DNA of 64,000 nucleotides. Origin: Agathobacter rectalis ATCC 33656. GTDB lineage: Bacteria; Bacillota; Clostridia; Lachnospirales; Lachnospiraceae. The notes under the pieces are model-generated. The model was not told the origin of the DNA. It made no database searches and worked only from the letters and a program-made list of their open reading frames with translations. Both the position numbers and the translations under genes were made by a program. This document shows, in pieces, positions 43,422-64,000 of this stretch. The DNA lies in the NCBI RefSeq assembly GCF_000020605.1, contig NC_012781.1, forward strand, positions 3,349,501 to 3,413,500, written 5' to 3'. The stretch's first letter is position 1, and every line of letters begins with the position of its first letter.

Positions 43422-44035
43422 TTCAAGTCACTACAGAAAATCTATGTTTTTCTTGGTCAACATAAGTCAAGCAACAACTTGATTTTACTGACTTTCCTGT
43501 AAATCCATGTCAAAATAAGAAAACTGAAAATCATCCAAGTTAAGCACCTCTCGCTGACAAATGAGTGACACTGTCACCCTGAGGGTTCAACCATTCCGTT
43601 CCTGCGAATTCATATTTATGGCTACCATTCTCACTGAATATGCGGTAATGATAACACTGTTTTCTTATTAGATTATCTATATTATAACGTGTGTGAGGTC
43701 GGATGTCGATTGTTTTTTGACCATTATTTACTCCGCATTACACGTACTCTCTTCTATGTTATAAAATCAAGCATCTTCTGCATATACACCATCTCCATAA
43801 TATAGAAAAGAGGAGTCCCCGCAGGTTCTCCCCCGGTCGCAGGCCTCACAGGTTTCTGCAACGCGATCACTGTATTTGCAGTTTATTCCGCAATGGGAAT
43901 GGGTTTTCGGTCTCCATCCCGACCACTGGAACAGGTTTAAGGTCTCTGTTCCGACCTTATATACATCTTTTATATTTTAATTATGCAAGATAACTTTAGA
44001 ATCTGCAACAAGTTGTTGCTAAATTAACTGCTTAT
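43422..44035. other. Gap of 614 bases with a coding remnant and hairpin repeats
   Basis: The gap holds no complete gene. A start-less minus-strand frame at 43767-43975 reads SHCGINCKYSDRVAETCEAC then DRGRTCGDSSFLYYGDGV; its Cys pattern looks like a protein end, so it is a possible remnant. Inside it lie the hairpin repeats described separately. Confidence 0.4.
43895..43956. repeat. Two tandem hairpin units with paired changes
   Basis: Unit 1 (43895-43924) is gggaatggg, ttttcggtct, ccatccc, gacc. Unit 2 (43928-43956) is ggaacagg, tttaaggtct, ctgttcc, gacc. Each folds as a stem around a ttNNggtct-type loop, and most bases that differ between the units differ on both sides of the stem. Confidence 0.55.
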
Positions 44036-44686
44036 TTATGAACTCAATTCCGTTACCAGTGAAGAATATCTTTTTGTCCGGTTCTTTATATCCTCCTCAC
44101 TGACACCATAATAACAATATAAATCTCTGGCTATTTTCTTAAACCTTTTTATGACCGACTTATTTCCAGAGTAAGATATTCCAAATATATTCCAGGTATA
44201 ATCTACCTCTATTTCCATTAAATCCTCACCAATTTTTATTTCATATAAATGAAAATCCATGGGAATTACATTATCAGGCATTTGGTCAATCAATTTATTT
44301 CTAATTTCCATTTCATTCAAAAAATTTTTAACAGATTCTTCATTATGAAAATCTGGTTTTGGAATATCCTTCCTTTGGCCCAAAAGTTCTGGTTTATGCT
44401 GCATAATCAAACTAGCTTTTAGATTTTTCTGTCGTTCTATCCAATTTGTTGCGGCAGGATTGATTTCCACTAAATCATAATGATCCTTTGCGTATTGCAC
44501 CACTTCCGCAAGGGTATGCGGGTTGGCCGCTATTCTCTTTTCTATCCTTTTTCGTCTGGATTGATAGATAGCATTTCGGATTCTAATCTTTAGAGATTGC
44601 TTTTGAGCTTCTCCAAATATAAAAACACTTGTGGGACCATCTTCACCATTTATTATGGAAACTTGATTGATACTTTTATTTTTCAT
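44036..44686 (-). CDS. Unknown protein with N-terminal GEDGPTSVF motif
   Basis: A 216-residue, mainly helical and charged protein without signal peptide or membrane helix. The start, VSIINGEDGPTSVFIFGE, contains a motif like the conserved GGADGPTSI loop of sodium-pumping decarboxylase beta subunits, which have no other similarity here. The rest is unknown to me. It is the last gene of the paralog array on the minus strand. Confidence 0.65.
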   Translation of the reverse strand: MKNKSINQVSIINGEDGPTSVFIFGEAQKQSLKIRIRNAIYQSRRKRIEKRIAANPHTLAEVVQYAKDHYDLVEINPAATNWIERQKNLKASLIMQHKPELLGQRKDIPKPDFHNEESVKNFLNEMEIRNKLIDQMPDNVIPMDFHLYEIKIGEDLMEIEVDYTWNIFGISYSGNKSVIKRFKKIARDLYCYYGVSEEDIKNRTKRYSSLVTELSS

Positions 44687-44712
44687 AAGTGCCCTCTACT
44701 CACAAATCCCGA

Positions 44713-45127
44713 TTATATCGGTGATTCACAATCTTTTAGCCAAAATCGCAGTTCCATAACCGTCACAGCAATTTTATACTTTACTTCGATTTCAATCTTT
44801 TCTGGTGGATTGGCTAAAAGCCTGTCAATATCATTTTCCTCAACACCAGCCATTTTTGCTATGCGCCGTAACCGTAAGCACATGACCTCCATTAACACGA
44901 ATACTTTGTCCTTCTGCAATATTAACAGAATTATTCTGTCTGCTAATTGAAGCACCCTTCGCCAATTTTATTGGTGTTTTTAACGCTTGTGCCAGATCCT
45001 CTACCGGATTTAGTAAGTGCTGCAACATCGCCCCATTATATGCTTCCTTATCTTTAATAACTGTATTTTTATAATTAGATGTAAGTGCTCTTGTATTGGG
45101 ATTAATATAACTTGATATTGATTGCAT
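44713..45127 (-). pseudogene. Recombined copy of the SNYKNT family
   Basis: The first 88 residues (MQSISSYINPNTRALTSNYK onwards, to GGHVLTVTAH) are nearly identical to the start of the 312-residue protein at 62464-63402. At GCGCAT the similarity ends; the frame stops at 44840 after SKNGWC. A different frame then reads MAGVEENDIDRLLANPPEKI up to a stop at 44713. This is a copy cut and joined to another tail. The first stretch alone (44840-45127) codes for 95 residues. Confidence 0.72.
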
Positions 45128-45209
45128 CATCTCAACCTCCAATTATTTTCATTCCTCTGTCATTCGGAATCTATTCACTCTCCATAACGGTCCAAGTGAT
45201 CTATTACTT

Positions 45210-45983
45210 TTATGACCATCTATACCAAGTTCCGCTATTCAAAAGCTGTGACATACTTTCTTCATATCTTTTCACTGCTTTCTGCTGAATGGAACTAGGC
45301 ACCACATAATCGTTACCAACTTCACTTATTTTCCCATTTACCAGTTCGCAATGTGTCCCGTTTATCACAAATTCTCTGCTTGTATCCACTCCCTGTGACG
45401 CAAGAAAATCTAAAATATAATCGGTGTATGTATCTGTCATACTTGAAAAATACTGCTGATCCGCAAAATGTATCAGGGAGTTCAGACCACCTATCATCAT
45501 ATTGCATCTTTCATCATCTGCCTTGCTTCCGTTTCCATAGCCCTCGCCCCAGACAAAATCTTCCTGTACCGTCATGCTGTATCCATTTCCAAGATTAAAT
45601 CTGCTTCCAACCCCAATCGTGATACTGTTTGTACTGGGATCATATGGTTTGTACCCTCTGGTTTTAAATGGCTGCTGTACGGTTCCAAAGGTTTGAATCT
45701 CGGATGGGAGATATGACATACCCGTAATTGCCGTAAACGCTTTCTGCCCATTCACATAAAAGGAAGTATGGGTTGCACTGTCTATATCCGCTGTAATCTC
45801 GACTTTCTCATCATTGGCAAAAGGATTCTGTCCGGTCATTCCGGTTCCATATGCATACAGCATTCTTGTAAACTGATATCTTGTATGTTCATCAAAATGA
45901 TTCAGTGTCTCTGTATCTTCTCCCTTTACATCTCCATTGCAAAAATCAAAAAATTTATTTTTGTTTATTTTATGTTCTAGCAT
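45210..45983 (-). CDS. Array protein with GVDTS module, unknown function
   Basis: A 257-residue protein, leaderless, with Thr/Gly/Tyr-rich strands (TSFYVNGQKAFTAITGMSYL). Near residue 195 it has DFLASQGVDTSREFVINGTH, the same pattern as VMSYLGIDTSKDFTVNGMKY in the 312-residue protein. There is no clear ribosome site, so it may be 5'-truncated. The function is unknown. Confidence 0.62.
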   Translation of the reverse strand: MLEHKINKNKFFDFCNGDVKGEDTETLNHFDEHTRYQFTRMLYAYGTGMTGQNPFANDEKVEITADIDSATHTSFYVNGQKAFTAITGMSYLPSEIQTFGTVQQPFKTRGYKPYDPSTNSITIGVGSRFNLGNGYSMTVQEDFVWGEGYGNGSKADDERCNMMIGGLNSLIHFADQQYFSSMTDTYTDYILDFLASQGVDTSREFVINGTHCELVNGKISEVGNDYVVPSSIQQKAVKRYEESMSQLLNSGTWYRWS

Positions 45984-46029
45984 AAGTCATTATTTTAATT
46001 GCACACCTTACGGTTTCATATCAAAGTTC

Positions 46030-46650
46030 CTATGCCAAAGCATCAAATGCCGAAACTCCATTTTCTGTCACTCCTATAGAAGTTGAAGTACCTAGCAATT
46101 CCACCATTTTTCCTGTCAGGTCATCTACATCTTTTCCATCAATTTTCAGATTATATTGCCGTTCTTCCTGCTCCTGTTTTTCGGCACGCTGTTTTTCCAG
46201 TCTTTCCTCTGTCTCTTTCTTTTCTGCTTTCCTTTTCTCGAGTCTTTCTTCAAGTTCTTTCCTTGCTTTTTCTGTTCTCGGATCAACTTCATCTTGAGTA
46301 CACATTACAGAACTCATGCTATCATATCCATTTATAGTAATACTATAACTCAGTATCTTTGCTCCTCTTGCTGCCACATAAGCTCTTGACTGTTCTATTG
46401 TTTTTGGTATTAGCGATAAATTGTACTCCAACCATTGTTTTGTCTTTTCATCTCCCATAGCCTTTGACAAAAGAGAACTGTTTATATTTACGGAATAATC
46501 CCTGCTTCGTAAACATTCGTATTTTTGTGTTAAATAGTTCTTATATTCATGAGCATTCTTATATGTCCTGCCCGTTTTGTTTCCAGCATTTTGTGTATTG
46601 CCATAACTATTCGTATATGACGCATATGTTCCTATTCCTGTAACTGCCAT
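46030..46650 (-). CDS. DUF6033-like leaderless protein, copy a
   Basis: A 206-residue protein that starts MAVTGIGTYASYTNSYGNTQ. Residues about 30-130 form the conserved domain (YLTQKYECLRSRDYSVNINS). A long charged helix, KARKELEERLEKRKAEKKET, follows. It ends in NGVSAFDALA, the tail shared in form with other array members. ATG at 46650 follows GAAAGGAG; an in-frame upstream extension covers the leader repeat and is not preferred. Confidence 0.75.
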   Translation of the reverse strand: MAVTGIGTYASYTNSYGNTQNAGNKTGRTYKNAHEYKNYLTQKYECLRSRDYSVNINSSLLSKAMGDEKTKQWLEYNLSLIPKTIEQSRAYVAARGAKILSYSITINGYDSMSSVMCTQDEVDPRTEKARKELEERLEKRKAEKKETEERLEKQRAEKQEQEERQYNLKIDGKDVDDLTGKMVELLGTSTSIGVTENGVSAFDALA

Positions 46651-46660
46651 ATTAACATAT

Positions 46661-46735
46661 CTCCTTTCATTATTCGGAGTCCTTCCAACTATGCCACCTG
46701 TTGGATTTCTCTCAGAATCAATATAATATTGATTA
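46661..46735 (-). repeat. Array leader repeat A
   Basis: On the minus strand the motif reads attgattctgagagaaatcc then aacaggtggcatagttggaa and ends in the ribosome site of copy a. It matches leaders B (47860) and C (57061). Translated it gives YYIDSERNPTGGIVGRTPNN, in frame with the gene below. Confidence 0.75.
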
Positions 46736-47770
46736 CACGCTAGCTTCAAATATACTTTGACTAATACCTTTTATCCACATATTCTGCGTTGCTCCATACC
46801 CTCTTTCCTGCCCTATATCATACAACCCACTGCTGTCAAAGCCTATTTTCAATACTAAATCATTTTCTTTTTTCCATCCATTCTTAGCATATTCCAACCA
46901 TCTATTAGAATAAAGTTCATACCCTGCGCCATTTTTAGCCTTTTCCTTAAACAAGACAAGTAAATCTGTGCCATCCTCTGCAATAAAAGTACCATTTCTA
47001 TATGTCGCATTGCGTGCATCATACCCTGTTGTCTCATAGACTTCATGCCATAAAGAATATTGGTTTGCCTTTGTCATATTTGCCTGCGAATTAACAATTT
47101 CATTGTCTGCATCATGCATACAAATCCACGCATGTGTCCATATATTTTTCGCATTATCCCCTTCATTCAGTAATTTTTCTATCTGCGATAATATGTCTCT
47201 ATCTGCATTTCCCGACACTGTTAATTGATATGTATATGGATCAATAGAAAATACCAAATCTGCCTGTTTTGATATTGATATCCCATTCTTTGAAAGTAGA
47301 TTTGAAATTTGCTGATTTACAACACTTCTGGCATACTGTTTTTCCCTGTCAGTATTGCGTACATAACCAACACTTCTTGAACCTCCTGTATATACATCCT
47401 TGTAATTTCTTAATGCATAATCATACCGGGCAAATCCAGCCGAATATTTTCCTCCTGTTTGTAACATTCTTTTCTCATTGCGGTAAGCTATGGAACGCTG
47501 ATCTTCTGTCATATATGAGCAAAAATTAGGTGAGGTCACATCACAATATTTTGATTCGATATATGTCATCGGATCAGAATGAGACAAATTTTCTTTGTAC
47601 ACTTTATCATAATGCTCCTGCAAAACTTTTTGTACGAAACGATCTTCCTCGGTAAGTCCATCATATTGATAACCTACAGTTGTACCAGTGTTGGAATTAT
47701 TGGGCAGGTTGTTTAAATCCCTGCCAGCTGGAATGTTATTATAATAGTCAGAATTATTTACAGTAACCAT
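46733..47770 (-). CDS. DUF4885-like protein, copy a
   Basis: A 345-residue leaderless protein starting MVTVNNSDYYNNIPAGRDLN. It has the family segments PMTYIESKYCDVTSPNFCSY, YARSVVNQQISNLLSKNGIS and FSIDPYTYQLTVSG. It is nearly identical over its whole length to the gene at 61367-62404, with about 20 residue changes. Similarity between the two loci stops at the stop codon. The function is unknown. Confidence 0.8.
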   Translation of the reverse strand: MVTVNNSDYYNNIPAGRDLNNLPNNSNTGTTVGYQYDGLTEEDRFVQKVLQEHYDKVYKENLSHSDPMTYIESKYCDVTSPNFCSYMTEDQRSIAYRNEKRMLQTGGKYSAGFARYDYALRNYKDVYTGGSRSVGYVRNTDREKQYARSVVNQQISNLLSKNGISISKQADLVFSIDPYTYQLTVSGNADRDILSQIEKLLNEGDNAKNIWTHAWICMHDADNEIVNSQANMTKANQYSLWHEVYETTGYDARNATYRNGTFIAEDGTDLLVLFKEKAKNGAGYELYSNRWLEYAKNGWKKENDLVLKIGFDSSGLYDIGQERGYGATQNMWIKGISQSIFEASV

Positions 47771-47859
47771 ACTATACCACCTACCTTATAATCTGTATCA
47801 TGTGAATCATACTGAAACCCTATCGATAAACTTTTTTCATTTTATTTTCCACATTTTTT

Positions 47860-47929
47860 CTTCATTATCCGGAGTTCTTCCGACTGTGTCACCTGTTGGC
47901 TTTCTCTCAGCCTCAATATGATATGTAAT
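47860..47929 (-). repeat. Array leader repeat B
   Basis: Minus-strand text tcatattgaggctgagagaa then agccaacaggtgacacagtc matches leaders A and C. Here the frame (ITYHIEAERKPTGDTVGRTP) stops before the next gene, so it is not an N-terminal extension of it. Confidence 0.72.
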
Positions 47930-47968
47930 CCAAGTTCTCTTTTTTTCCTATGTTCAAATGACTAAGCA

Positions 47969-48710: not shown

Positions 48711-49367
48711 CTATATTTTTATATCTACTGACTTCTTGCCACTCTCAACAGACTCTCTTGTAATACCATCCAATGCACCAGCCGGTATTGGTTTACCCGC
48801 TTTCCATGTAGGATCAGCGGCTTTTGCTGCTTCTGCAAATGCCTGTCTGTATTGATGTTCATATTGTTCCATTGTCCAGCCTGCTGATAAGCGGTCATCC
48901 TTATCCATTTTTCTGTATAAATTGTTATATACACTCTCCCTTTTGGTAGTATCACCATTTAAAGTACCGTTTTCATTTAAGAATTCTTTCTTTGCCAGTT
49001 CAAACATTTCTTCCCGGCTGCTCTCTGGAATAGAAATGATATGTTTATAACTGTTTCTGTTCTCATCCGTTACAGCAAGTCCTGTTAATCCGGTATTCGG
49101 ATCAATCCAGTCTCCATTTTTGTCATACTGGCTCATCAGGTTCTTAATTGCCTGAACATTTGTAAACATTGCACCGTTTCCATTTTTCATCATCTCACTC
49201 AGTGCTGCTTTATACTTTTTACTGTTTGTGTCGATCCCTGCTGCTTTTAATTGTTTCTGTACAGAACTGCTGTTCATTTGGGACAACTGAATATTGTTGA
49301 CTAAATTTGTTTTTGATGTTCCAAATGTCGTTTGAAATAAAAAACCGTAGTCCGTAATTCTTGACAT
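48711..49367 (-). CDS. DUF3879-like leaderless protein
   Basis: A 218-residue protein. The start SRITDYGFLFQTTFGTSKTN and the segment AAGIDTNSKKYKAALSEMMK match the DUF3879 pattern. It ends SGKKSVDIKI, a tail like those of other array members. It is the first gene below the kinase, behind the direct-repeat promoter at 49449-49492, so it is the best candidate for direct control by the LytTR regulator. Confidence 0.78.
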   Translation of the reverse strand: MSRITDYGFLFQTTFGTSKTNLVNNIQLSQMNSSSVQKQLKAAGIDTNSKKYKAALSEMMKNGNGAMFTNVQAIKNLMSQYDKNGDWIDPNTGLTGLAVTDENRNSYKHIISIPESSREEMFELAKKEFLNENGTLNGDTTKRESVYNNLYRKMDKDDRLSAGWTMEQYEHQYRQAFAEAAKAADPTWKAGKPIPAGALDGITRESVESGKKSVDIKI

Positions 49368-49499: not shown

Positions 49500-50792
49500 T
49501 TATGAATTGAGGAATAACTCAGCAATAAATTTATTTCCATCACTTTTCAATATTAAATTTCCATCATATTTTTTTACACTGCTCTGAACATTCAGCAGTC
49601 CTATTCCACCGCCTTTTCCTTTCGCTGATACCGGAAAACCATTTTTCCACTTTACCTCCCCGCAGTTATTTTCGATGCTGGCAGCTATCATTTTATGGTA
49701 TGAGCCAATCTTAATCGAAATATATTTCCCGCCTTCAAGCTTCTCTGCAGCCTCAATCGCATTATCTAATAAATTTCCAAAAATAGTTGTAATGTCGATT
49801 GGTGCAAGGAAATTCAGATTCACATTATCCACCTTTATGGTTACTGAAATACCTTTTTCCCTCATAACGGATTCTTTATCGGTAAGAAGAATGTTCAAGA
49901 TCGGATTTTCTGTGTATTGAACCGGAATGAGCGGCTTTAACAGTTCTCTGATTTCCGCTGCATATTCTCCTGCCGTATTCCCCTGCTCTGCACCATATAA
50001 TCCTTCGATTGCTTTAATATGCTTATTTACATCATGTAATATGTGGACGGTTTGATCATATTTTTTTGTCTGCGTCAAATAGTATTCGTATTGTACCTTT
50101 GCCTGTTGCTCTAAAGCGATGAGCTGCTTTTCATAATAGTTCTTTTCATCTGCCATTTTAACAAAATATAAAAGGTATAGATCTGCCAGAACAATACACC
50201 CCATATTGACTGCACATAAATAATTTTCTTCTCCATTTTTAAAATTCTCTACAATTACACCCATGTTAATCAGATTGTATAGGAGTATAATTCCATACAT
50301 GATGTACCTTGTCTTTGCATAAGGAATATCGCTCTTTTTCACAAACCTGTTTATGAATGTATAATACAAAAAAATAAGTATTACTTTTGAAAATGTTACC
50401 TCAAGGCAGTAAAGCATCGTTTCATTCACATTTTTTATATCTGCTGCCTGCAAAATACATTGTAAAAGAATCACTCCTAATGATTCACAGACAGACATGC
50501 AAAATACCAATGCCTCACATTCAATGATACGTCTTAACGGTTTATCCATATCCTCATAATACAGAGCATATGCTATTATCCCCGTCAACACGCCCCAGAC
50601 CACCAAATTTAATATGGAATGATTGAGCATATTGATACAGGTTGTAAAAATCACTGTGACAGTCTCGATCACAATATATACATATCTACTTTGACTACTC
50701 TTTTTATACTTTCCATTCATAAACTGGAACAGTATGGTACTTATGATAAAACAGGAAAGAGCATTACATAATATCAGTAAAATCGTATTCAT
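49500..50792 (-). CDS. AgrC-like sensor histidine kinase (GHKL)
   Basis: A 430-residue kinase. About six membrane helices occupy residues 1-205. The phosphorylated His is in HILHDVNKHIKAIEG (about residue 252). The GHKL ATPase has NLLDNAIEAAEKLEGG and GKGGGIGLLNVQSSVKKYDG. Kinases of this class usually sense peptides. No agrB- or agrD-like gene is seen in the window. It lies eight bases after the response regulator. Confidence 0.9.
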   Translation of the reverse strand: MNTILLILCNALSCFIISTILFQFMNGKYKKSSQSRYVYIVIETVTVIFTTCINMLNHSILNLVVWGVLTGIIAYALYYEDMDKPLRRIIECEALVFCMSVCESLGVILLQCILQAADIKNVNETMLYCLEVTFSKVILIFLYYTFINRFVKKSDIPYAKTRYIMYGIILLYNLINMGVIVENFKNGEENYLCAVNMGCIVLADLYLLYFVKMADEKNYYEKQLIALEQQAKVQYEYYLTQTKKYDQTVHILHDVNKHIKAIEGLYGAEQGNTAGEYAAEIRELLKPLIPVQYTENPILNILLTDKESVMREKGISVTIKVDNVNLNFLAPIDITTIFGNLLDNAIEAAEKLEGGKYISIKIGSYHKMIAASIENNCGEVKWKNGFPVSAKGKGGGIGLLNVQSSVKKYDGNLILKSDGNKFIAELFLNS

Positions 50793-51544: not shown

Positions 51545-51710
51545 CTTCTTTCTATCTTCCTACTATATCGGTAATTTTTATTTTTCCATTAAATAAATAT
51601 AAAGTACTCTGCATATTATCTAAATAGGCTCTAAATAAATATCATATATATAGAAAATGTGCCATCATCTTGACGGCACATTTCCTATATTTTCCCCCCA
51701 AATTATATTG

Positions 51711-51797
51711 CTACAGTATAGAATACCATTGTCTGTCCATACTATCAGCTTCATACTGATATGTAATCAACTGATTCATGTCTTTTAAACCCGCCAT
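51711..51797 (-). pseudogene. 3' relic of a DUF4885-like gene
   Basis: The minus strand reads GLKDMNQLITYQYEADSMDR then QWYSIL and a TAG. It is almost the same as the last 28 residues of the protein at 54707-55897. Nothing of the rest of the gene remains. It lies between the two-component genes and the PPC-domain gene. Confidence 0.75.
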
Positions 51798-51815: not shown

Positions 51816-53258
51816 TTATATTATAGTTTTCATATTTTTATAGTATCCTGCATTATCCATAACACTATTATTGCCAGATGTACCCACAGTACTTACCTCA
51901 GAGTCCGAAATATTATACCCTGCCTTAAATGCAAGAATATCCTCCAATCCATATTGATTTTTATAATCCGTCAGCATATAGATATTATCTCGTATTTCCT
52001 CATATTTCGCATTGGCTTCCTGGGAGTTCATTATTTTACACATTTTCTCTGGAAGTCCGGTAATCTTCCCATTGTCATCTACGTTTATATCGTCAAATGA
52101 ATACTGTCCATTTGTTGCTTTCTGAATGAACTGTTCCACTTCATAGTAAGCATTTACTAATCTATATTGTGTGTTAGAAATATCTGCTGTCTGAATATAT
52201 TTTTCCCACATATCATCAGCAAAATTTTCCGATATCATATTTTTTATCTGTTCTTTGTTTTCTTCTGTAATGTCCCCGTTAATCGTAATAGTTCCAGATA
52301 CATCTATTTCAATTTTCCATGATGTATCTGGCAGTTCAATTCCTTTTTCATTTGCTATTCTTTCTATTTCTGCATAAAAATCGTTTTTTATATAATTCGA
52401 CTTCTCTGCTCTCTCATAATCAGATAAATTGGCAAATATTTTCACATATGCCATTTCCGACACACTTAACTGCTCCCCCTTTTTCATCTTATTTAATAAT
52501 TCTTCTACACTATCCGTTCCCGAATATTTTTCATCTTCCGGCAACGCTTCAAATTGCATCTGATGTAATTTGTCAATTTCGCTTTGATATGTTTTTTCAT
52601 ATTTCTGCTTTATTGCATTTTTTTCTTCTGAATTATCTGCATTTGCTATTTCTTGTGAGTGCTGCACATTACTACTTGAAGTATCCCTGTTTTTCGTTTC
52701 CGTAATTTTTATTCTATAGGAACCTTCCCCGGAATCCGATGTCATATTGGAATTTTCTACTCTGATCACATAATCTGATGTAACGCAGTCCCAATTAGGT
52801 ACCGTAAGCTGTTTATTACCATGTCCATCATCTGTCGCTATTCCAATCTGATTGCCATATAAATCGTACAATACTAAATTATATGCCTGACTATTCTTGC
52901 TTTCCAATGAAATCGTTATCTCTGAAGATATACCCATTTTAGAGTAAAAACTTTTTTGCGGATAAGAAAAAGAATAGTAATCTACATCATATTTTGAATC
53001 GATTGTTCCCTCTAAATAACTTTCATTATTATGCAACAATGTTCCTATATCATATGTACTGTAATAGCGATCTACCTGATCATCGTATTTCGTATGCTGA
53101 TGATAACTATCATTCTTATTTGTTTTGGCATTTTCTATTAACACCGTTTGCTCATTTAATTCTTTCATCGGCGATTTAAAACTTTTTGCTGCATTTCCTG
53201 TCTCATATATTTTACTATCTACTATTCCGCCACCTATATAATGTACATAGTGTCCCAT
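51816..53258 (-). CDS. Array protein with PPC-like beta domain
   Basis: A 480-residue protein that starts MGHYVHYIGGGIVDSKIYET after an AGAGGTG ribosome site. Residues about 80-190 look like a bacterial pre-peptidase C-terminal (PPC) beta-sandwich: GTIDSKYDVDYYSFSYPQKS and YNLVLYDLYGNQIGIATDDG. The C-terminal 280 residues are helical and like other array proteins. PPC domains normally act outside the cell, yet there is no signal peptide. Confidence 0.7.
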   Translation of the reverse strand: MGHYVHYIGGGIVDSKIYETGNAAKSFKSPMKELNEQTVLIENAKTNKNDSYHQHTKYDDQVDRYYSTYDIGTLLHNNESYLEGTIDSKYDVDYYSFSYPQKSFYSKMGISSEITISLESKNSQAYNLVLYDLYGNQIGIATDDGHGNKQLTVPNWDCVTSDYVIRVENSNMTSDSGEGSYRIKITETKNRDTSSSNVQHSQEIANADNSEEKNAIKQKYEKTYQSEIDKLHQMQFEALPEDEKYSGTDSVEELLNKMKKGEQLSVSEMAYVKIFANLSDYERAEKSNYIKNDFYAEIERIANEKGIELPDTSWKIEIDVSGTITINGDITEENKEQIKNMISENFADDMWEKYIQTADISNTQYRLVNAYYEVEQFIQKATNGQYSFDDINVDDNGKITGLPEKMCKIMNSQEANAKYEEIRDNIYMLTDYKNQYGLEDILAFKAGYNISDSEVSTVGTSGNNSVMDNAGYYKNMKTII

Positions 53259-54515: not shown

Positions 54516-54706
54516 GAATAATTCCTTTCTGTTCATAGTTCTTTATTTTATAGTTTTTTGATTTATATAGATTCATTATTAAAACGCTTTCCCTCCCTCT
54601 ATTGTTTATTTTTTAATTTAAAAATTTCGAATCATATATTTTATCTAAAAAACTATATTACTATACTTGACACACTTCCCTATATTTTTTCAAAAATATT
54701 ATATTT

Positions 54707-55897
54707 CTAAAGTACAGAATACCATTGCCTGTTTGTACTATCAGCTTCATATTGATATGTGATCAACTGATTCATGTCCTTTAAACCACTCTTTCCATAT
54801 AAAATGCTTAAAGTCATATCCGGCACATTGTTCCATCCTTTAGTTGACATAGTTGAAACCAGGTCATGTATCCAATTCTTCATTTGCTGCTTGAACTCTT
54901 TCGGAACTTTTCCAGAATCTTCAACAGCCTTATCCACTAAGTCTAATATATTCTCTCCTGACTCCGTATAATATGTCCCATTTTTTTCCTCAAGTTTGTC
55001 TAATCCATATCCTGTATAACTATAAACCTGATGATATGCTTCGTATTTCATCTTTGATTCCTCTGTTACTTGAGAACTCTCACAGCCATCTTGTGTTGAG
55101 CAATAATAGATATGCTTATAGAGATTTTTCCCATTATTACCTACATTTAAAGCATTCTGCATCAACACCTTTGTTTCTTCATCCACGCCATCTACCGTTA
55201 TCTCGTAACTGTATGGATCGACAGTAAAAATACAATCTTCCGTAATAGAAGATGTGTCTACACCAGCCTGCTTTAAAATATTTGAAATCTGCGAATTTAC
55301 CAATGCTCTTTCAAATTGGATTTTATCCGAATCTACACTGTCGCCGTCCACTTCAATTCCCCTGAACAAAGAATCCTGATAATTTACACCATTTATTTTT
55401 CCTGTCCGGCACATCTGCATCTCATAATTATATGCAATCCTACGTTCTGTATCAGTCAGATTCGTCTCGTAATACTCTGAACTCTTATCAAAATACTTGG
55501 AATGAATATAATTTTCAGGGTTAGAATGTGTTTTTGCTTCTGCAGCAAGCTTAGAATACTTTTCCGTTAATGCTGCCCTAAATGCTTTACCTGTACTCAT
55601 ATATTCACTTGTTTTCGCATTAATCTGTGTTCCTGCATTCTCAATGATCTCTTGATTCGTTTTTTTTGCTGAAGCTATATAGGACTTTAAATCAATGCTG
55701 CTATCAATACTTGTATTATGTGTTCTTCCACTTGTACTTTTTGTCAGTTTTTCCTTTCCTGATGCACTTATCGTTAAAGTATCTCTTGTGCCTCTACAAC
55801 CAGTGTTTTGACTGCTTGCCGCTTTTTGTTGTTGACCAAACAGAACATTAAGCAATGACTGATTAGCATTTATTCGGCTGTTAAAAAATATATTCAT
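54707..55897 (-). CDS. DUF4885-like protein, diverged copy c
   Basis: A 396-residue leaderless protein, MNIFFNSRINANQSLLNVLF onwards. It has the motif RDTLTISASGKEKLTKS near residue 40. The family core follows: PENYIHSKYFDKSSEYYETN, ILKQAGVDTSSITEDCIFTV and DPYSYEITVDG. It aligns with the 345-residue copies but is far from identical. It ends NRQWYSVL. Ribosome site AAGGAGG. Confidence 0.77.
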   Translation of the reverse strand: MNIFFNSRINANQSLLNVLFGQQQKAASSQNTGCRGTRDTLTISASGKEKLTKSTSGRTHNTSIDSSIDLKSYIASAKKTNQEIIENAGTQINAKTSEYMSTGKAFRAALTEKYSKLAAEAKTHSNPENYIHSKYFDKSSEYYETNLTDTERRIAYNYEMQMCRTGKINGVNYQDSLFRGIEVDGDSVDSDKIQFERALVNSQISNILKQAGVDTSSITEDCIFTVDPYSYEITVDGVDEETKVLMQNALNVGNNGKNLYKHIYYCSTQDGCESSQVTEESKMKYEAYHQVYSYTGYGLDKLEEKNGTYYTESGENILDLVDKAVEDSGKVPKEFKQQMKNWIHDLVSTMSTKGWNNVPDMTLSILYGKSGLKDMNQLITYQYEADSTNRQWYSVL

Positions 55898-55948: not shown

Positions 55949-56430
55949 TCAATAATCACCGAATCTGTCATTGATTCCTGTTTCATACGAATACCATCGT
56001 GTAAATACAGACATATTACTCAGGAAATTTTTGACTTTAGAATTGTCTTTAGTATCCGAATAATAATCTTCCATTAAATCCCATACATTACGGATTTCGC
56101 CTTCCGACCTGATTTCTGAAATCCGAATTCCATATACTGTTAAAATCAAAACCACCGTCTAACGTAAGGCTGGAATTTGCTTCGATTTCATCACAGTCAA
56201 TCCCGCCCAATTCCCATTTTTCCGTCATTTTCCAGGCAGATTCTCTCAATGCCGCATTGGTGTCATTGCATTGATAGTAATAATCTGAATTATAATAAGT
56301 CCAATCACTGTGATCATCAGAATAGTATTTTTCCTTAAACAATGCCAGTAAATCTGTACCATCCTCTGCAATAAAAGTACCATTCTTTGAAAACAGATTT
56401 GATATCTGCTGATTTACAACACTCCTATTT
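55949..56430 (-). pseudogene. Broken DUF4885-like gene
   Basis: The remnant begins with the internal segment RSVVNQQISNLFSKNG and jumps directly to TFIAEDGTDLLALFKEKYY, leaving out about 95 residues present in the intact copies. It then continues into an end not found in them (DDHSDWTYYNSDYYYQCNDT), with one frame change near 56130. It ends NDRFGDY. There is no start codon at its 5' end. Confidence 0.75.
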
Positions 56431-56458: not shown

Positions 56459-57046
56459 TTACGCTTTCATATCAAAATTGTCTTGTGACATTATATTTTC
56501 ATTCATACCACCAGTTCTTTGTTCACTGTTTAATGCTTTTCTTGCATCACAAAAAGCCTCATAATACGTCGATTTTAACGCCGAATGTACCTGTGACTCT
56601 GCTTTTGTTTCCTTTTCTTGCCAGCCTACTCCCTCTGTATATGTCAGAACTTCTTCACCACATTCGTTATATACATGAGCTGCTGATCCTGTTCCCTCTC
56701 CCTGAAACTCTGCCTCATATGGTATCCCGAACAAAATACAGAGCCATTTTTTATCAGCTTTTTCAACTTCTTTCATTGCGGACATATTGCCGGAATTCAT
56801 TGATTGATTAAATTTTCCAATTAAGGCTGCCCTGTTCGGTGCCACTTTGCTTACTTCCATCTTACGCAAATTCATAAACGCATTTCCCATATATACGTTG
56901 TCCTGTGCATCTTTTTTTGCCAGTTCAACAATTTTCTCTTTTAAAGAATCCGTTAATTTCCATTTGTTTTTTTCAGAAGATTTAGAAACTTTTTTATCCG
57001 AAGTGCCCCATAATTTTGCTGTGCTATAATTATTTGATACCTCCAT
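56459..57046 (-). CDS. Array protein with FDMKA tail
   Basis: A 195-residue leaderless protein starting MEVSNNYSTAKLWGTSDKKV. It has a Lys-rich helical start, a middle with KWLCILFGIPYEAEFQGEGT, and the end NENIMSQDNFDMKA. The ATG at 57046 follows AGGAG; the upstream in-frame stretch is leader C. It resembles DUF6033-like members only at the tail. Confidence 0.65.
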   Translation of the reverse strand: MEVSNNYSTAKLWGTSDKKVSKSSEKNKWKLTDSLKEKIVELAKKDAQDNVYMGNAFMNLRKMEVSKVAPNRAALIGKFNQSMNSGNMSAMKEVEKADKKWLCILFGIPYEAEFQGEGTGSAAHVYNECGEEVLTYTEGVGWQEKETKAESQVHSALKSTYYEAFCDARKALNSEQRTGGMNENIMSQDNFDMKA

Positions 57047-57214: not shown

Positions 57215-58114
57215 CTAAAGTGCATACATATGTTGTAATTTACTCAACATATTACTTACTCTGCCTTCAACAGCTTCTGGCTGATTCCTTAATTCATACC
57301 TGCTTCCATAGTAATCATTTAAACGGTCTTTCATCTCATTACAAAATAATTTTTGATCTGTTTTACCATTTAAAAACTGATTGCAGATACCACTTATCTC
57401 TTTCTTCTCATTTGTATAAAAAGCTGTCTCATCTGAGATTATTTCTGACTTGTACTTATAAGATTCTGTTTTGCTTCCAATTCCAACAACCATGTAATCT
57501 GGTGTCATTCTCTCCATGATGGAATTACGTGCTGAATCATTAAAATGAACATATTCGTCAATCATGTCTGAAAAACCTGCTTGTAATTGCTCTGGAACAT
57601 ACATTTCATTTACTTTTCTTAGCCCCGCTTCACTTGCACTTAACAAAAATACAGATTCATAAGAAGTTCCTCTATATCCCTCCTGAGCATTCAAAGAATC
57701 TACATCTGCTGTCATTGCATTAATCTTCTCTTTTAAATCTTTCATTTCATCTTCTGTCAAATATTCAGAAGCATTTTCGTCCAGCCATTTTTCAAAAACC
57801 TCTGACTGATTTTCCGAACAGCCTTCAAACGCACTTTGTTCTCCAGAAATGGAAGTTGCTTTCAAATCTAATTTGAATAAATTTTCACATTTGTATTCTG
57901 CTGGTATTTCTTTTATCTCTCCATTGATTGACGAAAAATGCATTGCCTGAAAATCTGAGACTTTATCACGAGCAGTCTCAACTAACTTTCTTGCTGAATC
58001 ACTGATTTTCACATCATCCTCCGAAATAATATTCTGAGGAACAGTTGTTTTCTTCTCAACCTTATTTTTTATCATTTCTGGATTATTAATATACCTATTT
58101 CCTTGAACTTTCAT
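57215..58114 (-). CDS. Array protein with ISDSARKL motif
   Basis: A 299-residue leaderless protein, MKVQGNRYINNPEMIKNKVE onwards. The motif DVKISDSARKLVETARDKV (about residues 34-52) is like the N-terminal motif of FlgM-type and other flagellum-linked proteins. The rest is helical and acidic. It ends SKLQHMYAL. Ribosome site AAGGAGG. Confidence 0.7.
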   Translation of the reverse strand: MKVQGNRYINNPEMIKNKVEKKTTVPQNIISEDDVKISDSARKLVETARDKVSDFQAMHFSSINGEIKEIPAEYKCENLFKLDLKATSISGEQSAFEGCSENQSEVFEKWLDENASEYLTEDEMKDLKEKINAMTADVDSLNAQEGYRGTSYESVFLLSASEAGLRKVNEMYVPEQLQAGFSDMIDEYVHFNDSARNSIMERMTPDYMVVGIGSKTESYKYKSEIISDETAFYTNEKKEISGICNQFLNGKTDQKLFCNEMKDRLNDYYGSRYELRNQPEAVEGRVSNMLSKLQHMYAL

Positions 58115-58260: not shown

Positions 58261-59010
58261 TTATGCCTTAATATCAAAACTTGATCTATCAGGTGCAGAA
58301 ATACTCACAGATTCTGCTACAAGGCTCTGTGTCATACTTTTTACATCATTACCAGTTACGGATAAGGTATAATCACCCGTTTCTTTTCCTTCTGCCGATT
58401 TTTCTGCACGTTTCTTTGCAGCTTTTTCTTCCTCTGCTTTTTTAGCAGCTCTTTTTTCTTTTATCTTTTCCTCTTTTTCTCTGATCTCTTTTGCCTTTCG
58501 TTCAGCATTCTCTTTCGCTATTTTCCCATCTGGATCATTTGTACCAGATATTGCCACCGAAATATTTCCGTTTGCATCAATCATATAACTCAGATTTGTC
58601 AAAGTGCCCAAACATCCATTCACCGCACTTTTTGCACAATCTGGAATGGCTGCTAAGTTTTCCTCCAGATACTTTGCTTTTTCTGGATCATTCATACACT
58701 TCTGTAAAAATGCACTTGAAACGGATACTGTTGTCGGAACCCCTTGCATTGAAGTCGTTCCCGTATTCATATAATGGTATTTTCCTTGCAAGTATTTTGA
58801 ATAATCATTTACATTGCTATACCCTGTCTTAATCTGCTCTGTTTTTGTCACACCGGGACGTGATGTTTTTAATTCAACTGTACTTGTTGTCACGTTGCCA
58901 TCTTTTGTATTTGTACTATCCTTTTCACTATCTGTTTTTTTTACAGTATTCTTATAATTTGAAGCATAATACGATGTGTAACTGCTGTTATTGATACCCG
59001 TAATTGCCAT
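58261..59010 (-). CDS. DUF6033-like leaderless protein, copy b
   Basis: A 249-residue protein that starts MAITGINNSSYTSYYASNYK and goes on NTVKK, so it carries both the MA[IV]TGI start of copy a and the SNYKNT motif of another family. The conserved domain has YLQGKYHYMNTG and FLQKCMNDPEKAKYLEENLA. A long Lys/Glu helix (about residues 165-205) follows. It ends DRSSFDIKA. Confidence 0.76.
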   Translation of the reverse strand: MAITGINNSSYTSYYASNYKNTVKKTDSEKDSTNTKDGNVTTSTVELKTSRPGVTKTEQIKTGYSNVNDYSKYLQGKYHYMNTGTTSMQGVPTTVSVSSAFLQKCMNDPEKAKYLEENLAAIPDCAKSAVNGCLGTLTNLSYMIDANGNISVAISGTNDPDGKIAKENAERKAKEIREKEEKIKEKRAAKKAEEEKAAKKRAEKSAEGKETGDYTLSVTGNDVKSMTQSLVAESVSISAPDRSSFDIKA

Positions 59011-59074: not shown

Positions 59075-59107
59075 AATTTCTCTCAGCCTCAATATGATAT
59101 GTAATTA
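59075..59107 (-). repeat. Array leader repeat D, partial
   Basis: Only the first part of the leader remains on the minus strand: ttacatatcatattgaggct then gagagaaatt. The rest is unrelated. It lies upstream of DUF6033-like copy b. Confidence 0.6.
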
Positions 59108-59141
59108 CTATTTTTATTTGTAAATCATAGTACTAACATCA

Positions 59142-59885
59142 TCAAATCTTAATGCTCATCAATAACTGCTCTCTATTAGGCTGAATCATTGTATATTTCT
59201 CCTTAAATGAGGTAATTGCACCATACATTTTCTCAGTTAAATTTTCTGGGATTTCGTCCTTTCCCCTGGTTTTTTGCTCCTCAATGTAAGCTGATGCCAA
59301 AGTTGACCTTGTGGTAATTTTTGAAATTTTATTCATTTCTTCACCAATAATTCCACGGGCATGCTGATTGGTTGTCTCCATTGTCACAAAGTCATCCACT
59401 GTTTTTTTATATGCAGCATCTAAATTGCTTAACTCTTCATCCTTTGTAAGCTTACGAGGTCCATTTTCATCAGCTACATATATTTCTCTGGTTCCATTTT
59501 CATAGCCCTTCACAATTTCATCATATAATTCTGCGTATGCTTTAACATAATTATTTGCCTTGTCAGTAATATTTAAGGCACTTTTTCCTGTATCAACATT
59601 TTGATTCTGCTGTGCTGCCTTCTTTTGAATTTCATAACTATAATCAATATCACTGATTTTTTTACTCGCTAACAGTTCCTTTCTTTGAACCACATCATCA
59701 TATTTTTCCTGTCCACTCTGCTGTATACGATTACGATAATACTCCAATCCCTCATTAGAAATCGAAAGCTTCACTGATTGCCCCACTGTATGTTTTTCGT
59801 TTGTCTGACTATTTCCTTTCTGTACTTTATCAGTATTTTTTTCCATTATTGAATTCGTATTATTCATGTAATTAAATATTTTCAT
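59142..59885 (-). CDS. Array protein with SIKI tail
   Basis: A 247-residue leaderless protein, MKIFNYMNNTNSIMEKNTDK onwards. The motif VKLSISNEGLEYYRNRIQ (about residues 38-55) is of the same form as ISDSARKL in its neighbour. The rest is helical. It ends NREQLLMSIKI. Ribosome site AGAGGTG. Confidence 0.68.
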   Translation of the reverse strand: MKIFNYMNNTNSIMEKNTDKVQKGNSQTNEKHTVGQSVKLSISNEGLEYYRNRIQQSGQEKYDDVVQRKELLASKKISDIDYSYEIQKKAAQQNQNVDTGKSALNITDKANNYVKAYAELYDEIVKGYENGTREIYVADENGPRKLTKDEELSNLDAAYKKTVDDFVTMETTNQHARGIIGEEMNKISKITTRSTLASAYIEEQKTRGKDEIPENLTEKMYGAITSFKEKYTMIQPNREQLLMSIKI

Positions 59886-59898
59886 ATTGTCACCTCTT

Positions 59899-60852
59899 TC
59901 AATTATTCAAATATCCCTGATCCAGTTCTTCTTTCGACCAGACTCTTTCATACGTTCCACCAATTTCGTCAAAAACCTTTTGCCATGTAGAAAATTTATG
60001 GATTTCCTCCATGCTATCCTTGTTATTCTGAAGCCATTCATACAGCTTTTCATACATAGAACCAGAAAACCGGACACTCCAATTGTTTTTATAATTTTCA
60101 TTGTCACTGTATGACATTCCATCAGCTCCTATGGATATAATTCCCTGATCTGTCCGTTTTGCCATTCCTCTAATCTCTAAATCAGCCCAGATAAAACCTT
60201 CTTCCCGACTCTCAATTAAATTAGGGTATTTGTCAAAATACATCTCCGCTAATTCTTCATACCTCTTCCGATCCGCTTCATTTTGCAGAAGAACCTTGCC
60301 ACCTCTGCCTTCCTCACCGTCTTTTACTAAATACTGGATGCCGGTATCTGAATGTGTATTTAATGTAAATCCCTGCAAAGTCTCCACATCCAGCGAATCT
60401 TTATCCATTACATTCTGCAATGCATCTTTTAATTCATCATCTAATACCAGGGCATCGTAACTCATCGTTCCATGCTCAGAAATCAAAAACTGCTTTCCTG
60501 TTGTTTCATCCTGTCTTATTTTTATATCAGAATAGGAAAATGCCCCCAAACGCTCCCCGTCTTTATTGTATATATCAAAACATTCAGCTTCATTATCGGG
60601 TACGATTCTATAATTTTCGGATTCGTACTCTGAATATTCCTGTTTCAAAGTATTTATCGTTTTTCCTGACAGTGCCAGATAAGAATCCATCACTGTACTT
60701 TTCTTAGCACGATTGATATCCGCTCTACTGCTAATATCCTCCTTATCCACCGTCTGAGCCAAAGTGTCAGCCCACTTATTCTGGTTCCGATTTGGTTTTA
60801 GGTTGTTATAACCTGTTGAATAACGGCTCTCCGCTCCTATACTTCCAATCAT
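59899..60852 (-). CDS. Array protein of unknown family
   Basis: A 317-residue leaderless protein, MIGSIGAESRYSTGYNNLKP onwards. It is acidic, with a middle domain (VPDNEAECFDIYNKDGERLG, KIRQDETTGKQFLISEHGTM) and a helical end. It follows a ribosome site GGGAGGAATTTAAA that recurs below the gene at 62464. The gene below starts 14 bases on. Confidence 0.66.
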   Translation of the reverse strand: MIGSIGAESRYSTGYNNLKPNRNQNKWADTLAQTVDKEDISSRADINRAKKSTVMDSYLALSGKTINTLKQEYSEYESENYRIVPDNEAECFDIYNKDGERLGAFSYSDIKIRQDETTGKQFLISEHGTMSYDALVLDDELKDALQNVMDKDSLDVETLQGFTLNTHSDTGIQYLVKDGEEGRGGKVLLQNEADRKRYEELAEMYFDKYPNLIESREEGFIWADLEIRGMAKRTDQGIISIGADGMSYSDNENYKNNWSVRFSGSMYEKLYEWLQNNKDSMEEIHKFSTWQKVFDEIGGTYERVWSKEELDQGYLNN

Positions 60853-60874
60853 TTTTTAAATTCCTCCCGGCATT

Positions 60875-61363
60875 TTATTCTCTTATTTTAGATGCCAGTA
60901 CGGTATAAAATTCTTTTTCCTGCTGCAGATATGCTGCCCTTTCCTCTGTAACTGCTGCCAACGGATTTTCTATTCTCTCCAATACTTTGTCGATAGCTGC
61001 TAAACAACTTTCTTTCGTTTCACCAAAAATATTGTCATCACCACCTGTCAGAAAATCCTGCTCTACCGATAGCTGCGTTAATATACTGGTTACATCCGTC
61101 TGAAATGGATTAAAACCAGTTTCTTCCAATGTTTCCTGCCATGCTGCCTTGACACTCTGCGGAACTGTCTGAAGGTAATAACCACTCATATAAGCAATCT
61201 GCTTTTTGGTTTTTTCGTCTGCAAACTGATAGGTTCTGTTATTCACTTTTTTTGTACTTTTTCCTTTCGATGGAATATAAGACCAGTTTGGTTCTCCATT
61301 ACTACCAGAAGTAATTAGCTGTTCCCTTCCAACTGTTCCTATATTTGAAAAAGAGATTCCCAT
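60875..61363 (-). CDS. Chimeric array protein
   Basis: A 162-residue protein. Its first 40 residues (MGISFSNIGTVGREQLITSG) are unique in the window. From NRTYQFADEKTKKQIAYMSG to ASKIRE it is nearly identical to the last 120 residues of the protein at 62464-63402. It starts three bases after the DUF4885-like stop, with no own ribosome site, so translation is probably coupled. Confidence 0.74.
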   Translation of the reverse strand: MGISFSNIGTVGREQLITSGSNGEPNWSYIPSKGKSTKKVNNRTYQFADEKTKKQIAYMSGYYLQTVPQSVKAAWQETLEETGFNPFQTDVTSILTQLSVEQDFLTGGDDNIFGETKESCLAAIDKVLERIENPLAAVTEERAAYLQQEKEFYTVLASKIRE

Positions 61364-61366
61364 TAA

Positions 61367-62404
61367 TCACACTCTAGCTTCAAACATACTTTGGCTAACA
61401 CCTTTCATCCACATATTCTGTGCTGCTCCATATCCTTTTTCCTGCCCTATATCATACAATCCACTGCTGTCAAAGCCTATTTTTAATACCAAATCATTTT
61501 CTTTCTTCCAGCCATTTTTAGCATATTGCAGCCATCTCTTAGAATAAAGTTCATACCCTGCACCATTTTTAGATTTTTCCTTAAACAATGCAAGTAAATC
61601 TGTACCATCCTCTGCAATAAAAGTACCATTTTTATATGTCGCATTGCGTGCATCATACCCGGTTGTCTCATACACTTCATGCCATAAAGAATATTGGTTT
61701 GCCTTTGTCATATTTGCCTGCGAATTAACAATTTCATTATCTGCATCATGCATACAAATCCACGCATGCGTCCAAATATTTTTTGCATTATCTCCTTCAT
61801 TCAGCAATTTTTCTATCTGCGATAATATATCTCTATCTGCATTTCCCGACACCGTTAGTTGATATGTATATGGGTCAATAGAAAATACCAAATCTGCCTG
61901 TTTTGATATTGATATCCCATTCTTTGAAAGTAGATTTGAAATTTGCTGATTTACAACACTTCTGGCATACTGTTTTTCCCTGTCAGTATTGCGTACATAA
62001 CCAACACTTCTTGAACCACCTGTATATACATCCTTGTAATTCCTTAATGCATAATCATACCGGGCAAATCCAGCCGAATATTTTCCTCCTGTTTGTAACA
62101 TTCTTTTCTCATTGCGGTAAGCTATGGAACGCTGATCTTCTGTCATATATGAGCAAAAATTAGGTGAGGTCACATCACAATATTTTGATTCGATATATGC
62201 CATTGGATCAGAATGAGACAAATTTTCTTTGTACACTTTATCATAATGCTCCTGCAAAACTTTTTGTACGAAACGATCCTCCTCTGTAAGTCCATCATAT
62301 TGATATCCTACAGTTGTATCAGCGCTGGAAGTATTGGGCAGGTTGTTTAAATCCCTGCCCGCTGGAATGTTATTATAATAGTCAGAATTATTTACAGTAA
62401 CCAT
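61367..62404 (-). CDS. DUF4885-like protein, copy b
   Basis: A 345-residue near-duplicate of the protein at 46733-47770. Most changes are at residues 25-30 (SSADTT for NTGT), and in the last 90 residues (KSKNGAGYELYSKRWLQYAK). Its flanks differ from those of copy a except for a short GATACAGATTATAAG upstream. The two genes lie 14.6 kb apart in the same orientation. Confidence 0.8.
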   Translation of the reverse strand: MVTVNNSDYYNNIPAGRDLNNLPNTSSADTTVGYQYDGLTEEDRFVQKVLQEHYDKVYKENLSHSDPMAYIESKYCDVTSPNFCSYMTEDQRSIAYRNEKRMLQTGGKYSAGFARYDYALRNYKDVYTGGSRSVGYVRNTDREKQYARSVVNQQISNLLSKNGISISKQADLVFSIDPYTYQLTVSGNADRDILSQIEKLLNEGDNAKNIWTHAWICMHDADNEIVNSQANMTKANQYSLWHEVYETTGYDARNATYKNGTFIAEDGTDLLALFKEKSKNGAGYELYSKRWLQYAKNGWKKENDLVLKIGFDSSGLYDIGQEKGYGAAQNMWMKGVSQSMFEARV

Positions 62405-62463
62405 ATTATCCCCCTGCCTTATATAAGTCTTATAATCTGTATCTTTAAATTCCTCCCGGCATT

Positions 62464-63402
62464 TTATTCTCTTATTTTAGATGCCAGTACGGTATAAAAT
62501 TCTTTTTCCTGCTGCAGATATGCTGCCCTTTCCTCTGTAACTGCTGCCAACGGATTTTCTATTCTCTCCAATACTTTGTCGATAGCTGCTAAACAACTTT
62601 CTTTCGTTTCACCAAAAATATTGTCATCACCACCTGTCAGAAAATCCTGCTCTACAGATAACTGCGTTAATGTACTGGTTACATCCGTCTGAAATGGATT
62701 AAAACCAGTTTCTTCCAATGTTTCCTGCCACGCCGCCTTTACACTCTCCGGCACTGTCTGAAGGTAATAATCACTAATATATGCAATCTGCTTTTTGGTC
62801 TTTTCATCTGCAAACTGATAGGTTCTGTTATTCGCTTTTAACTGTTCATATGCCGCCTGCGCCTCACTATTCGCTTCTGACTCATACCAGCCATCTTTAT
62901 TTTTGCTATATTTCATACCATTGACCGTAAAATCTTTGGAAGTGTCTATACCCAGATAAGACATAACATCCGTAATTCCTTCTGTATACCGGGCATATTC
63001 CTCCTTTGAATGTGCTACAGTAGTCATTGTCCCACCTGCATTTCGCAGCATGGATGCCAATGCATCTGCCATTCTCTGTGCTTTTACATATGATTGTGTA
63101 TCATACGGATTATCTCCACCAGAAACCTCTACTCCATGCGCCGTAGCCGTAATCACATGACCTCCATTAACACGGATTCTTTGCCCTTCCGCAATATTAA
63201 CAGAATTATTCTGTCTGCTAAGTGACGAACTCTTCGCCAATTTTATAGGTGTTTTTAACACTTGAACCAAATCTTCTACCGGATTTAGTAAGTGCTGCGA
63301 CATCGCCTCATTATAGGTTTCCTTATCTTTAATAGCTGTATTTTTGTAATTAGATGTAAGTCCTCTTGTATTAGGATTAATATAACTTGATATTGACTGC
63401 AT
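62464..63402 (-). CDS. SNYKNT-family array protein, full length
   Basis: A 312-residue leaderless protein. Start: MQSISSYINPNTRGLTSNYK then NTAIKD. The middle has GGHVITATAHGVEVSGGDNP and VMSYLGIDTSKDFTVNGMKY. The end domain from NRTYQFADEK is shared with the chimera at 60875. The start domain is shared with the broken copy at 44713. This gene shows the whole arrangement from which the other two are pieces. Ribosome site AAGGAG. Confidence 0.76.
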   Translation of the reverse strand: MQSISSYINPNTRGLTSNYKNTAIKDKETYNEAMSQHLLNPVEDLVQVLKTPIKLAKSSSLSRQNNSVNIAEGQRIRVNGGHVITATAHGVEVSGGDNPYDTQSYVKAQRMADALASMLRNAGGTMTTVAHSKEEYARYTEGITDVMSYLGIDTSKDFTVNGMKYSKNKDGWYESEANSEAQAAYEQLKANNRTYQFADEKTKKQIAYISDYYLQTVPESVKAAWQETLEETGFNPFQTDVTSTLTQLSVEQDFLTGGDDNIFGETKESCLAAIDKVLERIENPLAAVTEERAAYLQQEKEFYTVLASKIRE

Positions 63403-63464
63403 TGTCTCAATCTCCTTCGTTTATTCTAAATTCTCTTTTCCTTCTATGTCCAAATAACTAAGCC

Positions 63465-64000
63465 TTATTTATACTTACTATTTGTATTTGGCAAATCAAG
63501 ATAAGCATCCATACTTTTCGTCCAAAGCAACGATAAGTCAAACCTTCCCAATTTGTTTAAATCTTCTATGCTTTTTTTGAACATTGAGATAAAATCTCTT
63601 CTGTCGTTAAGTCCCATATTACCAGCTTCAAGTGGCAGAGACGTGAAACCTCCCTGCTTTTCCACTTTGTAATGTGCCTCCAATGCACGCATTTCGACTA
63701 CTGTAGCATTTGATGGATTAACATCATTGATATAAATTCTTTGCTCAAACTCTTTCCCGTTTTCATCCACACCTTTCGCTAACACCACAGGATTTTCATC
63801 CGTCGAATCATCCGCATATTTAAGACAATAAGAAAGACCTGTACCATTACCTCCTGTCCACAACATATTATCTGTTGTAAATATCTGATATACCTTCGGT
63901 GTTTCTGCCGTATAAAATGTCTTTTCCCCAGATGCAGGAGTTTTCATTTGATTACCTTTTTGTTGACCATATGATGAAGATACGGTATTCAGGCTAGAAC
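63465..64000 (-). CDS. Array protein of the MYIGSG type, copy b, start beyond window
   Basis: The frame is open to the window edge and matches 47969-48514 almost residue for residue (SSYGQQKGNQMKTPASGEKT to NSKYK). The first eight or so residues lie outside. It is followed by the SNYKNT-family gene, whereas copy a is followed by leader B and a DUF4885-like gene. Confidence 0.74.
   Translation of the reverse strand, partial: SSLNTVSSSYGQQKGNQMKTPASGEKTFYTAETPKVYQIFTTDNMLWTGGNGTGLSYCLKYADDSTDENPVVLAKGVDENGKEFEQRIYINDVNPSNATVVEMRALEAHYKVEKQGGFTSLPLEAGNMGLNDRRDFISMFKKSIEDLNKLGRFDLSLLWTKSMDAYLDLPNTNSKYK

Follow-up and report, generated by a model that had tools for sequence, protein, structure and literature searches.

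We analysed a stretch of 64,000 nucleotides (nt), called the window, from Agathobacter rectalis ATCC 33656 (RefSeq GCF_000020605.1, contig NC_012781.1, positions 3,349,501 to 3,413,500). The genome is a single contig of 3,449,685 bp, designated C1, and the window is C1:3349501-3413500. From 44036 to 64000 the minus strand of the window carries an array of 16 complete open reading frames (ORFs; 44036 to 63402) without signal peptides, here termed leaderless, which surround a GHKL/LytTR two-component pair. A 17th leaderless ORF (63465-63998) is cut by the window edge, and several relics also lie within the array. L-labels denote fetched loci and G-labels genomes. The features of the array are as follows.

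44036..44686, minus: g216, leaderless ORF of 216 amino acids at the left array end; no Pfam family; DNA match of 98.9% in G175 and 73% in G182
44840..45142, minus: relic, N-terminal part of the I312 family; repeat D4, 90% to 63136-63415
45210..45983, minus: A257, leaderless ORF, no family (ORF list, Pfam scan)
46030..46650, minus: D6033a, divergent DUF6033, likely ATG start at 46650; Pfam 42.4 bits (cut-off 25)
46733..47770, minus: D4885a, DUF4885; Pfam 171.9 bits
47969..48514, minus: B181, leaderless, no family; second copy at 63465 (repeat D2)
48711..49367, minus: DUF3879 protein, C-terminus VDIKI; Pfam 304.6 bits
49425..49492, minus: DUF3879 promoter, two putative 11-nt half-sites at 20-nt offset, then TAAA-N16-GTCGATA (motif search)
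49500..50792, minus: GHKL sensor kinase, AgrC-like; HATPase_c_5 74 bits
50801..51544, minus: LytTR response regulator; Response_reg 44.6 and LytTR 39.3 bits; upstream sigma-28-like site at about 51572
51702..51791, minus: relic, DUF4885 C-terminus; repeat D8, 89%
51816..53258, minus: C495, leaderless, likely start 53258, no family (ORF list, Pfam scan)
53331..54536, minus: Sec-type protein with DUF6947 and CBM-like_2 domains (Pfam)
54707..55897, minus: D4885b, DUF4885; Pfam 169.2 bits; sigma-28-like site at about 55927
56088..56426, minus: relics, DUF4885 pieces; repeats D6 and D7
56459..57046, minus: E246, leaderless, likely start 57046, C-terminus FDMKA (ORF list)
57215..58114, minus: F299, leaderless, no family above cut-off (ORF list, Pfam scan)
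58261..59010, minus: D6033b, DUF6033 just under the cut-off (22.7 bits; cut-off 25), C-terminus FDIKA
59142..59885, minus: G247, leaderless (ORF list)
59899..60852, minus: H317, leaderless (ORF list); a relative adjoins a GHKL/LytTR pair in G096
60875..61363, minus: I162, chimeric gene; repeat D1
61367..62404, minus: D4885c, DUF4885; Pfam 173.4 bits
62464..63402, minus: I312, leaderless, no family (ORF list, Pfam scan)
63465..63998, minus: second copy of B181, edge-cut; complete at L037:5965-6510 (ORF list, L037 sequence)

The array runs on for about 5 kb past the window, to C1:3418408, where it reaches ORF J222 and a second GHKL/LytTR pair (L037:9434-11408). A first-pass annotation had described at least 14 genes and several relics resembling DUF4885, DUF6033 and DUF3879, beginning at 43767. 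The array itself is real, but its extent and family content had to be corrected: no array ORF lies in 43767-44035, and only six complete ORFs match the three families in Pfam, namely three DUF4885, two DUF6033 (one of them below the cut-off) and one DUF3879. For the remaining ten, the Pfam scans of window proteins gave no family above the cut-off. The annotation was right about the LytTR regulator and AgrC-like kinase inside the array, about the duplicated, chimeric and broken copies, and about a single exception to the leaderless state, the Sec-type protein, whose signal peptide we judged by eye.

The regulator pair recurs beside these families elsewhere, which the annotation had proposed to check. 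Among 32 loci fetched for divergent DUF6033, DUF4885 or DUF3879 copies, several of which come from the same genomes, an adjacent GHKL/LytTR pair on the same strand was present in 16, compared with 6 of 80 loci with stand-alone DUF6033 (Fisher P = 1.6e-6), and three more of the 32 have one of the two partners alone. The AgrC-like GHKL kinase and LytTR regulator expected of an Agr-type system are both found. AgrB adjoins DUF3879 in another locus of this genome (L086) and in L219 and L259, and it adjoins DUF4885 in L041. The half-site arrangement of the DUF3879 promoter also precedes DUF3879 in G183 and a DUF6033 gene in G175 (L047); allowing at most two mismatches per half-site, the pair occurs at five distinct places in the DNA compared (seven rows, two of them repeats). 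The LytTR protein may bind these putative half-sites.

L259 (MT836337.1, 2702-10910) is a faecal scaffold filed as a bacteriophage, which encodes, in this order, LytTR, GHKL, AgrB and DUF3879 proteins, with a subtilase downstream, and also Sec-type proteins. Rather than a phage, it appears to be a bacterial locus, chromosomal or mobile.

What the annotation had overlooked is a link to the flagellum. DUF6033 was detected in 45 of 150 sampled Lachnospiraceae genomes (one per genus) and the flagellar export protein FlhA in 82, and all 45 are among the 82 (P = 6.5e-16, uncorrected for phylogeny; G144 has a partial FlhA match). DUF3879 and DUF4885 were found in six and four genomes of this sample, respectively, all of them FlhA-positive (6/6 and 4/4). 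In 79 closer relatives, 38 of the 39 DUF6033-positive genomes have FlhA. The annotation had named membership in a known operon such as flagellar assembly as an outcome that would speak against it, and this applies by half: the families are flagellum-linked, but in this genome the array lies far from flagellar genes, with FlhA at C1:1666037. Array families were found inside a flagellar locus only in G106 and two related loci. In G106 (L088) one strand carries flagellin, LytTR, GHKL, six array genes, DUF6033 and FliS, with FlgF and FlgG (both identified by eye) further along, so that the array sits between flagellin and fliS; flagellin, FlgF/FlgG and the regulator pair are also present in L099 and L100.

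A sigma-28 matrix was trained on 15 DUF6033 sites, with thresholds set as percentiles of 939 control ORFs. It scores one E. rectale flagellin promoter at 20.4 and the FlgM promoter at 19.0, and the best scorers among the control ORFs include flagellins. Of 62 DUF6033 upstream regions outside the training loci, 49 score above the 95th and 29 above the 99th percentile. Seed and test promoters are homologous, and the result therefore reflects conservation of the site and not independent origin. By these scores most stand-alone DUF6033 genes stand behind predicted sigma-28 (flagellar) promoters. In the window the DUF3879, D4885b and LytTR genes reach the 95th-98th percentile, as does J222 just outside. 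Among 37 array proteins chosen by hand from other genomes, six exceed the 95th percentile, the top sites scoring 21.6 (L094), 20.3 (L091) and 19.2 (DUF6033 of L088).

A second family adjacent to DUF6033 (L116:9149-9820) starts with MRITTQML, ends in a YDFWG-like tail and has strong sigma-28 scores. Relatives occur in L088, L105, L110, L123, L132 and L134, and the family has a weak FliD_C match (26.7 bits, barely above the cut-off).

The ends of the array proteins were compared with those of 109 mechanical control ORFs, using 18 array proteins, namely the 16 that are complete in the window plus two from just beyond it. The fraction of N, S, T, Q, G and Y in the first 25 residues is 0.542 in the array (n=18) versus 0.298 in the controls (n=109; P = 5e-10); it is 0.49 in eight exported flagellar proteins and 0.455 in the 37 array proteins of other genomes. 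Acidic residues are rarer in the same segment (0.064 versus 0.112 in the controls, P = 0.007). Structure prediction gave low confidence for the first 43 residues of D4885b and the first 29 of a DUF6033 protein. The array proteins combine the absence of a Sec signal with a polar, apparently disordered N-terminus, as flagellar type III substrates do.

At the other end, unrelated array members share a C-terminal pattern, Phi-D-Phi-x-Phi, which was defined after the tails had been seen; its strict form occurs in 3/18 array proteins versus 0/109 controls and its loose form in 8/18 versus 3/109. In 25 fetched loci the strict tail was found in 23 of 380 ORFs, all 23 in array families or in genes directly next to them. 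In the 80 DUF6033 loci it ends 39 of 77 DUF6033 ORFs versus 12 of 1079 others, most of the 12 clustered near DUF6033, and among the 37 array proteins of other genomes it is present in 10 in strict and 17 in loose form. A similar C-terminal pentapeptide, Phi-[DN]-Phi-x-[AV], ends 28 of the 30 sequences that we read of the hook-length regulator FliK, drawn from 12 families of the order, Lachnospiraceae among them. The last residue in the array is varied and not mostly Ala as in FliK, the Pfam scans of 20 window proteins found no FliK Flg_hook domain (PF02120), and five residues cannot separate relatedness from convergence. For Salmonella FliK, the last five residues have been described as important for export switching (PMC10965912).

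Recombination has left clear traces. Four direct repeats of 280-300 nt with 90-98% identity lie in the array; I162 joins a J222-type start (compare L037:8574) to an I312-type end (compare 62464); and broken copies remain at 44840-45142, 51702-51791 and 56088-56426. The relatives of D4885b (among the matches listed, 120 of 273) include fusions to DUF3879 or to other N- or C-terminal parts, of which the single-contig cases are possible assembly artefacts. Between this genome and G183 or G182 the DNA identity of flhA is 72-74%; many array segments are 90-99% identical to the same two genomes and others 67-84%, in shuffled gene order. Shuffled segments were also found in G175, the flhA comparison covering G183 and G182. 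The ratio of non-synonymous to synonymous substitution rates (dN/dS) is 0.04-0.26 in the seven informative of nine gene pairs, one of the other two having no synonymous change and one being saturated; intact copies are therefore maintained by selection. As these comparisons read, the history of the array is one of horizontal, mosaic exchange under purifying selection, with segments exchanged and reordered between species; the first-pass annotation had spoken of a recombining set.

A 72-nt repeat, 79-88% alike between copies, recurs at gene borders (window 46662-46733, 47857-47928 and 57061-57132), and it could serve as homology for cassette exchange. In G182 the ORF L222:2779-3387 has the start of a LytTR regulator and the end of a DUF4885 tail, apparently a regulator that was itself broken by recombination.

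The explanation we favour, at a little under even confidence, treats the array as a recombining repertoire of leaderless proteins that is exchanged horizontally. The proteins are likely to travel as cargo through the flagellar type III export channel and are predicted to be switched on by sigma-28 together with an Agr-type GHKL/LytTR pair. In this proposal the GHKL kinase would sense a peptide and the LytTR regulator would bind the direct repeats ahead of a sigma-28-type promoter, a scheme that would confine production to flagellum-building cells. The polar, disordered N-termini would be recognised as those of flagellin and FlgM are, the FliK-like pentapeptide of several members would engage the export gate, and once outside, the products would serve as interchangeable factors, either secreted or on the cell surface. 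The earlier suggestion of a regulated set of exported or contact proteins is in part supported, with export or contact still a prediction, and the checks proposed for it came out mostly in its favour. More tentatively still, the flagellum would be a quorum-controlled secretion device in Gram-positive gut commensals, with a polymorphic, traded cargo and a FliK-type gate tag, a previously undescribed effector system. Each component belongs to a known kind (sigma-28 regulons, Agr systems, FlxA-like genes); what the literature searched did not show is their combination, in a Gram-positive commensal, into a traded array with Agr linkage and likely flagellar cargo.

The proposal builds on observed gene content, co-occurrence, promoter and tail motifs, mosaicism and purifying selection, and several points weigh against it. 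Regulator binding, export and the extracellular role are predicted. No AgrB was found among the 20 window proteins scanned with Pfam. G174 has DUF6033 and no FlhA match, in a genome that is 82% complete and has Flg_hook matches; at the phylum level the co-occurrence of DUF4885 is uninformative (FlhA in 7/7, but in 326/398 overall); and structural flagellar genes lie near only 5 of the 80 stand-alone DUF6033 loci. Sixteen of the 20 genes tested score below about the 95th sigma-28 percentile, and even the loose form of the post hoc tail is absent from 10 of the 18 array proteins. Moreover, cysteine makes up 0.82% of the array proteins, compared with 0.25% in flagellar proteins and 1.77% in controls. 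The presence of cysteine, together with a confidently predicted folded core in DUF4885 and the fact that export is read from sequence, would also suit an unlikely but serious alternative, in which the proteins are flagellum-linked and remain intracellular, where they would regulate motility or the export gate or act as chaperones for either, a FliK-like tail binding the gate while the protein stays. A large, traded repertoire with chimeras and exported-type N-termini suits cargo better.

Polymorphic, leaderless and chimeric proteins are typical of type VIIb-like systems, and the uncorrected co-occurrence statistic leaves room for shared ancestry as the source of the flagellar association, with the proteins leaving the cell by such a route or by lysis. 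We regard this as improbable, given the sigma-28 promoters of DUF6033, the array within a flagellar locus and the result that none of the 20 scanned window proteins has an LXG or WXG100 family in Pfam, the domains by which type VIIb polymorphic toxins are recognised. Slightly less probable again is a decaying mobile-element gene cluster maintained by transfer and recombination with no joint role. The relics and repeats fit it, as do the MobA/MobL relaxases and serine recombinase near array genes in G183; the low dN/dS values and the recurrence of the same families beside the same regulators in other genomes speak against it.

Yersinia YplA and the Campylobacter Cia proteins are non-structural proteins with flagellar type III export. 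Campylobacter FlaC has been described as another. The array proteins resemble these in being leaderless, tied to flagellar genes and likely to use the same channel; they differ in belonging to Gram-positive commensals, in their many arrayed paralogues, Agr-type regulators and mosaic exchange, and in that export here is predicted. With Agr quorum sensing the arrays share the GHKL/LytTR pairs and, in some loci, an AgrB gene beside DUF3879 or DUF4885, whereas the linked genes are flagellum-associated, the scanned window proteins include no AgrB, and a gene for a signal peptide was not identified. FlxA (PF14282) and sigma-28 class genes are also comparable: FlxA-like members occur within such arrays (L049, 60 bits), and FlxA relatives adjoin GHKL/LytTR pairs in G183, G177 and G191, although DUF4885, DUF6033 and DUF3879 are separate Pfam families. 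The E. coli flxA promoter is FliA-dependent (PMC4183435).

DUF4885, DUF6033 and DUF3879 are bare family names, and no paper on any of the three was found in the literature searched; now that they are linked to sigma-28, the export apparatus and Agr-type signalling, their role can be tested directly. If the proteins are flagellar cargo, motile Lachnospiraceae, which are common human gut bacteria, would have an additional way of secreting proteins to the mucosal surface, and differences in motility between strains could mean differences in the secreted repertoire. In the immotile E. rectale subspecies ErEurope the four motility operons are absent and agrB copies are fewer (PMC7278147).

Nine loci (L207-L215) carry, away from arrays, ORFs in which a part resembling the cytoplasmic part of FlhA (22-33%, blastp) follows an XRE-type helix-turn-helix start identified by eye: L207:9332-10084, L208:7197-8069, L209:9701-10456, L210:9627-10427, L211:8529-9272, L212:2075-2923, L213:8873-9724, L214:8693-9301 and L215:9000-9740. 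They are perhaps regulators that sense flagellar export. DUF4885 is also encoded on plasmids of Aliarcobacter, a flagellated Gram-negative genus (L232:7785-9158 and L233:7767-9116), where the proteins begin in a flagellin-like manner with MNINTN and MTINSN. Beyond the left end of the array, two small overlapping ORFs at window 41544-42136 resemble, by eye, a RelBE-type toxin-antitoxin pair.

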